From an uncultured Pelagibacteraceae bacterium (GTDB lineage: Bacteria; Pseudomonadota; Alphaproteobacteria; Pelagibacterales; Pelagibacteraceae), in NCBI GenBank assembly GCA_902595125.1, contig CACJOY010000002.1, positions 1 through 64,000 of the forward strand: a stretch of DNA of 64,000 nt, given 5' to 3'. The notes beneath the pieces were generated by a model. The model saw nothing but the letters and a program-made list of their open reading frames with translations, had not been told where the DNA came from and did no database searches. Below are positions 48,852-51,048 of the stretch, piece after piece. The stretch's first letter is position 1, and every line of letters begins with the position of its first letter. Both the position numbers and the translations under genes were made by a program.

Positions 48852-48899
48852 TGGTGGGCCCGCCAGGACTCTAATCTGGGACCAATACATTATGAGTGT
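48852..48899 (-). repeat. Partial tRNA copy (attachment-site duplicate)
   Basis: 48 bases matching the 3' half of the CAT-anticodon tRNA at 50972-51048, from the anticodon stem through the encoded CCA, with two mismatches, both in the T-loop/T-stem region (plus strand CTCTAATC where the gene has CTCGAACC). The match stops right after the anticodon stem. That extent is typical of a tyrosine-recombinase crossover in a tRNA gene. The fragment itself cannot be a working tRNA. Confidence 0.85.
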
Positions 48900-48931
48900 C
48901 CAAAAGTAACTTAAATTAACATTGAATAGTT

Positions 48932-48978
48932 GACTAATTACTAAAACGTAAATTCATTTACATAATTTGGTATACAAT
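48932..48978 (+). repeat. Left inner repeat of the tRNA-bracketed element
   Basis: Contains AATTTGGTATACAAT at 48964-48978, identical to 50884-50898; the preceding ~30 bases (ACTAAT, CTAAAA, CA/TTTA elements) are similar with gaps. Both copies point the same way, as arm-type recombinase sites would. Confidence 0.6.
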
Positions 48979-49189
48979 CATTTATAAAAATTTCTTTTTT
49001 TAAACAAATTTGAGTCCAAATAAAAACAACAAGACTTGGTTTAAATAGAATCATGCATTGGATTTCATTCCTTTTCTCACGTTTACGTTTTTTTTCATTA
49101 TCTTCCTTGGTACGTAGACCTCTCGATAAGAAGAGGAGTGAAACCATTACTAATTACAAATTACTAACCTCAAAAAAGGAGCCAAAACT

Positions 49190-49768
49190 ATGAAACGTTT
49201 TCTTGTCTTTATTTCATTACATTTATTTTTGTTCGTATTAGTTATTGCTTATCAAGCTCAAGCTGATGAACATGAATGGAGTGTCCGGGAATTCGATACC
49301 TATATTACAACTACTAAAGCTGGTGAAATAACACATGGAGATAAACTAAGATTTTTTATAAATAAGGGTGATTGTTCGAGAATGGGTATCTTATTTACTT
49401 TCTCAACTATGAAAAATAAAAAAAATCTTGATAATTTACAAAATCAAACACTTCCAATTAAAATAAATGGTCACACAATTCATGACGGAGCTAAGGTCAT
49501 CTTAGTTCAACCTCTCTTTGGAGGAAGTATGAATATAGTAATGATGCAAGCACCAGGACTCAAAAGTATAGAAAATATGATTAGCTCAATAATGAGTTGG
49601 TATAATCAAGATAATTTTTTTGGAATTCAATTAATTGGTAAACAAGGTTTTAATCCAGAAGATTATTTTGATATAACAGATAATAATTGGAAAATGGATG
49701 GACTTCCTGAAAAAATCTCAGAAGCACAATCAATTTGCTATGGTCCTGAAGTGATTGAAACAAGTTGA
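49190..49768 (+). CDS. Secreted protein of unknown function, element cargo
   Basis: 192 codons. Signal peptide MKRFLVFISLHLFLFVLVIA with cleavage probably after QAQA (residue 25). The mature part begins DEHEWSVREFDTYITTTKAG and contains two cysteines (GDCSRMG and SICYGPE) that could form one disulfide, no transmembrane helix, and mixed alpha/beta character. I do not recognise the family. A strong ribosome-binding site (AAGGAG) precedes the ATG by nine bases. It is the plus-strand gene of the tRNA-bracketed element. Function unknown; a periplasmic protein is the only supported statement. Confidence 0.75.
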   Translation: MKRFLVFISLHLFLFVLVIAYQAQADEHEWSVREFDTYITTTKAGEITHGDKLRFFINKGDCSRMGILFTFSTMKNKKNLDNLQNQTLPIKINGHTIHDGAKVILVQPLFGGSMNIVMMQAPGLKSIENMISSIMSWYNQDNFFGIQLIGKQGFNPEDYFDITDNNWKMDGLPEKISEAQSICYGPEVIETS

Positions 49769-49788
49769 GAAAATAGAAATAGAGTTAT

Positions 49789-50796
49789 TTAATATTTGTT
49801 ACTTAACAATGATTTGTAAATTTTGGAAGTTGCACTAAACCTTGTCCAATATCTTAGATCTGTTGTAAACATATATGGATCACTTTTCAATTTTGAAGGG
49901 GAGCCCTTGGTGTCAAGCATCCACGATAATGAATAAAAGTATCTAGCACGAATTCTTCTTACACAAATACCCAAACTCTCACCTGGCACTAAAGATTGGT
50001 AACTTTTAAGTTTTTTTTCAAAAAATTCAAAATCTCTAATAAACACCTTCTTTTTTTTCTTATTATTCTTAAATATCAAATTATAGTCCCTTAATACCCA
50101 AAACATTTGTTGTGAAAAAAACTCAATCATGTCTTCAATCAAAATTTGATCTTTGTTTTCATCATTATACTTATTCCAAAGATTTATTTGATTTTGAATT
50201 ACATCTTCTCTACGCTTAATAAAATGATATAATATATTCTTTGAAAAATTATATTTATCTTCTATGACCTCCTCATAATGAAAGTCATAACGTTCTCCGT
50301 AAAATGCTTTAGTTTTTTTTCTTCCCCAGTCTTTAATTAACTCAATACTAAAATCCCTATCAATTGAGTCTTTTTTAAATTTTCTGACTTTCTTAATAAT
50401 AAAGAGTGGAATTTTTTTTCCAAAATAAATTGAGTCTAGGTAAAAAAGATGCCCTTTTTCTGGTCTCTTGCTCAAATGATTAATCATTACCTGCCCACTT
50501 GATATGTAGCATCTGCTTAAGAAGAAAATCGCTTCTTTAGGAGAAACATGATAGCATTCACTCCTCCAAAGTCTAAACTCACGAAGATAATACTTAAACA
50601 TTTTCTCCAAATTTCTTCCAAAAGACTTGGAAACTGGATATTTTCTAACTGGAGAGATGTATGGTAAAACTATATTATATTCTTTAAATCTTTGTTCAAC
50701 ATCATTAGCAATTCCAACTTTTATATGACTTGCCTTATGCTTTCGTCCATTGTCCCAAGTTGTGCCCCCAATACTTTCTGTAATATAAAAAATCAT
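49789..50796 (-). CDS. GIY-YIG-like (T5orf172/MUG113-type) protein, element cargo
   Basis: 335 codons. The first ~100 residues resemble the small GIY-YIG nuclease-like families: FYITESI at the start, HIKVGIANDVEQRFKEYN (KVGI plus a following Arg), then GRNLEKMFKYYLREFRLWRSECYHVSPKEAI, which supplies the Glu and a terminal Tyr-His-Val. The remaining ~230 residues are unrecognised, with helical, Lys- and Trp-rich segments. It might be a nuclease acting on DNA during element movement or defence. It converges with the secreted-protein gene, 20 bases apart. Family membership is moderately supported; catalytic competence is not established. Confidence 0.5.
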   Translation of the reverse strand: MIFYITESIGGTTWDNGRKHKASHIKVGIANDVEQRFKEYNIVLPYISPVRKYPVSKSFGRNLEKMFKYYLREFRLWRSECYHVSPKEAIFFLSRCYISSGQVMINHLSKRPEKGHLFYLDSIYFGKKIPLFIIKKVRKFKKDSIDRDFSIELIKDWGRKKTKAFYGERYDFHYEEVIEDKYNFSKNILYHFIKRREDVIQNQINLWNKYNDENKDQILIEDMIEFFSQQMFWVLRDYNLIFKNNKKKKKVFIRDFEFFEKKLKSYQSLVPGESLGICVRRIRARYFYSLSWMLDTKGSPSKLKSDPYMFTTDLRYWTRFSATSKIYKSLLSNKY

Positions 50797-50850
50797 TTAT
50801 TTTAACTAAACCTACTTAATTTATTAATAAATTTCAATTTTACTCAGATA

Positions 50851-50898
50851 GTAACTAATACATTCCTAAAAATGCACTTATACAATTTGGTATACAAT
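50851..50898 (+). repeat. Right inner repeat of the tRNA-bracketed element
   Basis: Partner of 48932-48978: the 15-base AATTTGGTATACAAT is identical, and the upstream AACTAAT...CTAAAA...CACTTA part aligns with gaps. It lies 73 bases from the tRNA 3' end. Confidence 0.6.
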
Positions 50899-50971
50899 GA
50901 AAAAGTTTTTAGAAGGTTTTTTGCTTAAATTTTTTAAAACCAAAATTTCTAAACGTTGATTTTGCTAGATT

Positions 50972-51048
50972 TGGTGGGCCCGCCAGGACTCGAACCTGGG
51001 ACCAATACATTATGAGTGTACTGCTCTAACCAACTGAGCTACAGGCCC
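50972..51048 (-). tRNA. tRNA with CAT anticodon (tRNA-Ile2 or elongator tRNA-Met)
   Basis: On the minus strand acceptor GGGCCTG pairs with CGGGCCC (one T-G), D-arm GCTC...GAGC, anticodon arm GTACA, loop CTCATAA, TGTAT, T-arm CCAGG, loop TTCGAGT, CCTGG, then A and encoded CCA. The CAT anticodon fits elongator Met or the lysidine-modified Ile2; the GGGCC acceptor and TTGGTC variable region lean to Ile2. Not an initiator type. It is the intact target of the integrated element. Confidence 0.92.

Follow-up and report, generated by a model that had tools for sequence, protein, structure and literature searches.

Non-autonomous elements at tRNA genes

Cis-mobilizable elements (CIMEs), as defined in PMC5704250, are described as arising by decay from conjugative or mobilizable elements, and the ssrA islands of Dehalococcoides have been suggested to be CIMEs (PMC3146451). 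Hitcher elements, which include MITEs and CALIN cassette arrays, have been reviewed (PMC11389934). Tycheposons are, as cited in PMC10872708, transposons of 4–200 kb with a tyrosine recombinase.

The stretch of DNA examined here (the window) comprises 64,000 nucleotides from an uncultured Pelagibacteraceae bacterium. Between 48852 and 51048 it holds what we regard, with a probability of roughly 0.8, as an integrated non-autonomous element that belongs to a SAR11-type family of very small elements (0.7–3.3 kb, one to four genes), probably moved in trans by the integrases of larger islands. The SAR11 bacteria, whose genomes are streamlined, belong to the most numerous cells of the ocean; to our knowledge, few mobile elements have been described in these genomes. 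At the level of titles and abstracts, and within the part of the literature covered, no description of such SAR11 elements was found. A family of minimal elements transporting genes for nucleases and secreted proteins from one divergent strain to another would provide a concrete, testable route for part of the gene exchange in SAR11. It would also illustrate the small size to which an integrative element can be reduced if its recombinase comes from another element.

The closest resemblance is to CIMEs. Integration and transfer genes are absent from the proteins scanned while both attL and attR are kept, so that in structure these elements answer to the definition; tandem accretion of related elements next to a single tRNA or ssrA gene is also common to both. 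Unlike CIMEs, they form a numerous and recently moving family of about 1–3 kb, in which the arm sites are constant and the cargo is interchangeable, and the adjoining islands are restriction-modification islands in whose examined parts no conjugation genes were seen. The Dehalococcoides ssrA islands use a serine recombinase, whereas the helper candidates in SAR11 are tyrosine integrases. With regard to the movement in cis of CIMEs after accretion, one tandem with an integrase island was found (genome G282), most elements standing alone; with regard to origin by gene loss, a resemblance to helper-island genes was seen in only two families of cargo.

Tycheposons, which occur in Prochlorococcus and in other bacteria of the sea, likewise integrate into tRNA genes (tRNA-Met among them), have a tyrosine recombinase in the system and carry cargo in streamlined marine bacteria. 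The initial annotation had considered a tycheposon-like unit; the tRNA site and the marine setting agree with this, but the elements measure 0.7–3.3 kb, outside the 4–200 kb range, and contain no recognised recombinase, and so differ in both of the features that were tested. Hitcher elements also take their recombinase from another element, and single-gene arrays resemble cassettes in effect. MITEs, however, use transposases and have no protein genes, and CALIN arrays involve attC sites and an integron integrase, in contrast to the tRNA cores, arm repeats and phage-type integrase found here. Phage satellites as a rule encode their own integrase and depend on a phage. Satellites such as PICI and PICMI have helper dependence and att-site integration in common with the SAR11 elements; these are, however, far smaller, neither phage genes nor a helper phage were found for them, and the two window proteins have no PHROG match.

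Structure of the window locus

The intact gene at 50972-51048 (minus strand) is called by ARAGORN as tRNA-Met(CAT) and constitutes one att-core end. A displaced copy of its 3' half, the att core beside mlaC, lies at 48852-48899 on the same strand, 6 bp from the end of mlaC. It covers the tRNA from its 3' CCA end up to and including the anticodon stem and matches it at 46 of 48 positions (96%; tRNA query positions 1–48), with an E-value of about 3e-16 in a search within its own genome, far beyond chance. From fragment start to tRNA start, the element bracketed in this way measures 2,120 bp. Both structural claims of the initial annotation are confirmed: the tRNA call and the 48-bp match with two mismatches bear out a half-tRNA copy bracketing about 2.1 kb, and the interior consists of two convergent genes, of 192 aa (plus strand) and 335 aa (minus strand), with no recombinase among the open reading frames between fragment and tRNA. 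Its view that the insertion is not brand new also holds, because the displaced core carries two mismatches. The 3' half of the now intact tRNA gene would have been supplied by the element.

In addition to what the initial annotation described, each end carries an arm-type site on the plus strand. On the left, a 20-bp tandem repeat (TACATAATTTGGTATACAAT) occupies 48959-48978, 62 bp from the core; on the right, a tandem repeat (TATACAATTTGGTATACAAT) at 50879-50898 opens a region (50879-50971) that continues as a conserved segment up to the tRNA, the arm being 74 bp from the core. An Rfam scan of the element returned just the tRNA, together with matches under the gathering score.

The tRNA-Met site in related genomes

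The flank and the site are syntenic among relatives (mlaC, tRNA, rpoD), and the site occurs both empty and filled. At least 18 related genomes have mlaC joined to the tRNA, the mlaC match ending 13–42 bp from an intact tRNA gene identical or nearly identical to that of the window. Filled sites were sought with the right arm plus core of the window element in 399 genomes of the genus, a large share of the sample being incomplete single-cell genomes. At thresholds of at least 84% identity over at least 128 bp, 15 genomes were positive, that of the window included, and the segment is 84–91% identical in the 14 others. A pattern scan of named genome contigs located 26 left ends; every one belongs to a Pelagibacteraceae or Candidatus Pelagibacter record, and several come from genomes already counted.

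Overall, about 28 distinct elements occupy this site, the window element and about 27 others, and their genes differ. Intact elements are 1.3–2.6 kb long, one diverged copy reaches 3.3 kb, and the median is about 1.8 kb; locus L113 is a tandem of two elements. Both the empty site and the other contents between the same ends that had been proposed as things to look for are therefore present. The outcome named as refuting, conservation of the two genes and the fragment throughout the relatives, did not occur, as the 335-aa gene is found in just one of the 399 genomes.

Cargo genes

The 192-aa gene (49190-49768, plus strand; family C0) encodes a protein with a signal-peptide-like N-terminal segment and no known domain, and the family is found in 53 of the 399 genomes. 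Its neighbour of 335 aa (49789-50796, minus strand) has an N-terminal nuclease domain of GIY-YIG type (MUG113/T5orf172), with Pfam PF13455 matched above cut-off. Searches with PADLOC and PHROGs gave zero matches for either protein. Structure prediction reached a pLDDT of 37 for the 335-aa protein alone and of 50 for the 192-aa protein with one homologue.

Across 32 elements, 62 protein clusters were distinguished, 12 of them shared. GIY-YIG nucleases recur in L107 and L113; other recognisable cargo includes a PDDEXK nuclease, for which NucS_C, MrcB_N and the PADLOC candidate PDC-S02 all give matches, as well as an HNH protein, alpha/beta hydrolases and a YdjM-like membrane protein, the last with a match below the curated cut-off. 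From this spectrum of nucleases (GIY-YIG, PDDEXK, HNH), secreted proteins and hydrolases, the cargo probably serves defence or competition. The cargo genes are under purifying selection: dN/dS is 0.28 for the 192-aa gene against its nearest small-element homologue and mostly 0.03–0.44 for the cargo as a whole, with one pair at 0.76 in which synonymous change is almost absent. No integrase was recognised in any small element, among either the cargo clusters or the cargo proteins scanned with Pfam, and the window reading frames and Pfam-scanned cargo proteins contain no recombinase or relaxase. A separate observation concerns otherwise unrelated cargo proteins of L104, L106, L109, L110, L118, L160 and L163, which have a nearly identical signal-peptide-like start (MKKLLGIVVLGLLLSGNAYA).

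The 192-aa gene is preceded by a conserved non-coding leader (48994-49189, plus strand), likewise additional to the initial annotation and present at 12 loci, with a conserved stem (CATTCCTTTTC / GAAGAGGAGTG). In the 12 sequences, the stem shows one covarying pair and several wobble changes; the single-sequence fold is only weakly better than that of shuffled sequences (z -1.6), and the leader matches no Rfam family. It is possibly an undescribed cis-regulatory RNA. In many genomes (L282-L294, e.g. L287 and L288), a 61-aa gene (MEI.RVCKYCHVSAYVAYDNC...) lies between the leader and the 192-aa family gene; it is missing from the window, L280 and L103.

Leader and 192-aa gene also occur together elsewhere. 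In genome G395 (L280:5481-6440) they match the window at 91.5% identity over 784 bp and adjoin a 3' tRNA fragment that reads, by eye from the sequence since ARAGORN does not call fragments, as tRNA-Thr. The arm repeat there is a different one (GTAGTGAATTTGTAGTGAATTT), and the tRNA-Met site of this genome is empty.

Arm sites and the question of decay

Lambda-type tyrosine integrases recognise arm-type sites, tandem repeats about 11 bp apart that flank the core. Intact elements at the tRNA-Met site have a corresponding organisation: a 20-bp tandem repeat (consensus TACACAATTTGGTATACAAT) lies 62–63 bp inside the tRNA fragment, the same kind of site lies 73–74 bp before the intact tRNA, and the segment from this right arm to the tRNA is conserved and terminates in AAACGTTGATTTTACTGGATTT. 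Agreement between the fragments and the tRNA breaks off in the anticodon region, where a crossover would fit. The left arms of three small elements (L116, L143 and L146) are close to the helper arm described below (GGACTCAATCTCG...).

These features bear on the most serious competitor, namely that the elements are immobile leftovers of larger islands or prophages that have lost their integrase. Decay is the usual explanation for CIMEs (PMC5704250), and the two mismatches in the window core, as well as decayed arms or cores in L118, L123 and L135, are in keeping with it. Against this, both arms are intact in most copies and element length falls in a narrow range; the cargo is under purifying selection and seldom resembles helper genes, the two families mentioned above being the exceptions; and near-identical elements (95–99%) are seen in distant hosts, indicating recent transfer. 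Decay as the general explanation is thus unlikely. The initial annotation had left the choice between a cargo-only unit moved in trans and a decayed prophage end. It is the former that is favoured, by the mostly complete arms at fixed distances, the selection on the cargo, the recent transfer and the number of elements (about 28); a prophage end is further disfavoured in that no phage genes were recognised.

Candidate helper integrases

The search for a tyrosine recombinase at the same repeats in relatives, which had also been proposed, was successful. Genome G010 has, immediately to the right of a 52-bp tRNA-Met core, the gene for a tyrosine integrase of 322 aa, with a tandem arm (GTACTCACTCTCGTACTCAAT) ahead of its start; other products of the island include a cytosine methylase, a Z1-domain helicase-like protein and an HNH protein. 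The integrase matches phage-type integrases. Homologues with 77–93% identity to it are found at the same tRNA in G282, G360 and G392, accompanied by other methylases. Only in G282 do helper and small element stand side by side, in the order mlaC, fragment, small element, core, integrase island.

The left arm sites of all four islands are at offset 62 and score 11.8–18.7 against a matrix derived from small elements, a few of which have helper-like arms; the background maximum over 119,124 positions is 8.75. Regions before ten integrases at other sites score between -20.7 and 1.6, under this maximum. The right arms of the islands fail the small-element motif (-11.6 to -13.9), yet CAATGAAAAAATTT is common to both. 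An integrase with exactly the arm type of the window (GTATACAAT) was not found; we place the islands in the helper group without equating any of them with the helper that serves this arm type.

The best reading is that the elements are minimal CIME- or satellite-like units, moved in trans by island integrases. The elements sit in the 3' half of tRNA-Met(CAT), with the original 3' half of the host displaced to the side of mlaC. The phage-type tyrosine integrase of a large restriction-modification island at the same tRNA gene would bind the arm sites and exchange strands in the anticodon region, such that the small elements would be both integrated and excised in trans, as circles. No excised or circular form was seen.

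A helper-integrase homologue was not found in the window's own genome, where the sole tyrosine recombinase detected is a 317-aa Xer-like protein. This protein might itself be the mover, and most genomes of the genus contain a match in its length class. By profile, however, it resembles XerC/XerD-type proteins, recombinases that act without arm-binding domains, whereas the elements have arm repeats; its gene is also unlinked to the tRNA-Met site. The Xer-like protein is accordingly a very improbable mover.

Movement of the elements by island integrases is also preferred over a phage satellite, another suggestion of the initial annotation, which gains no support: the helpers found are restriction-modification islands, and the viral collections gave nothing useful. 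Exact-pattern scans of viral contigs for right arm plus core, arm site, left junction and core, a method of low sensitivity, returned nothing, and no attP was found in these collections. Among viral contigs the helper integrase has one weak relative and the 192-aa family none; phage records contain no relative of the 335-aa protein, and their relatives of the helper integrase are at most 36% identical among the matches listed. Transfer by a phage thus gains no support from these scans.

Movement between hosts

Comparison of elements in different hosts shows where identity begins and ends. Element DNA is 90–99% identical across hosts, and the left flank, where alignable, 65–77%. In 150-bp bins, identity between L145 and L161 rises at the left edge from 51% outside to 97–100% inside; for L109 and L161 it falls at the right edge from 98–100% inside to 52% outside, and a drop from 99% to 51% on leaving an element also occurs. 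L106 and L107 show both edges: on the left, identity climbs from 71% to 97%, and on the right it drops from 99% to 83%. The window element is less closely matched, its nearest relative at the tRNA-Met site being L103 (80% over 860 bp). Elements are also mosaic, as L161 combines a left part of the L145/L110 kind with a right part of the L109 kind, and L031, L106 and L107 have their outer genes in common while the middle genes differ.

An exchange by homologous recombination over the conserved flanks (mlaC, tRNA, rpoD), with no site-specific step, would draw on the synteny of these flanks, and the mosaic interiors do need some homologous or other recombination. Yet identity ends at the att cores on both sides, the window cargo unit is found at another locus in G395, and neither the duplicated core nor the fixed position of the arm sites would be accounted for; flank recombination as the sole process is very improbable. 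The pattern fits site-specific transfer of units that end at the att cores, and neither old duplication nor flank-driven replacement. The central proposal of the initial annotation, site-specific insertion into a tRNA gene, is upheld by the empty sites, the other contents between the same ends and the jump in identity at the att cores. An old tRNA gene duplication or an assembly artefact, for which nothing speaks other than the presence of a partial copy, is refuted by the empty and alternative sites and by the same structure with different contents in independent genomes.

Related arrangements at tRNA-Met genes

In another family of the order, the same tRNA-Met gene carries tandem units of 704–1,348 bp with one recognised gene each (L061, L063, L068, L069 and L070). 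In most units each end bears a tandem repeat, which varies from unit to unit. A search of 53 genomes of this family with the helper integrase gave two weak or distant matches, and no helper was found there.

These single-gene arrays and the tRNA-Thr copy of the window cargo unit fit a broader scheme, to which we would give slightly less than even odds. SAR11-type bacteria might possess a tRNA-anchored, integron-like cassette system, in which units of one to four genes and 0.7–3 kb, with matched end arms, build up in tandem beside tRNA genes. A small set of integrases that differ in the arms they recognise would shuffle these units in trans, and cargo would be swapped between units that target different tRNAs.

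Several further arrangements were encountered. At L032, L034, L120, L122 and L124, about 1.1 kb follows mlaC, with right-arm-like sequence at the tRNA and no left fragment; in L032 and L034 this insert holds two genes of 194 and 151 aa. It is possibly an old, fixed element. In L056 (G019:C22, 864-5207), a 5'-half fragment of tRNA-Met lies 4.2 kb from the intact gene, on the opposite side; by eye, the insert encodes a ligand-gated-channel-like protein, a PrsW-like protein and others, with no integrase seen. A second class of small elements at the same tRNA, represented by L113:7786-10190 and L117:188-1793 (oriented coordinates), has arm repeats GTGAGTACCT and a longer core match that reaches position 62. 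Finally, in L238 and L240 an integrase-bearing stretch lies at a different tRNA-Met gene, 33 bp of which recur about 2.6–3 kb away; these stretches are possibly small autonomous elements.
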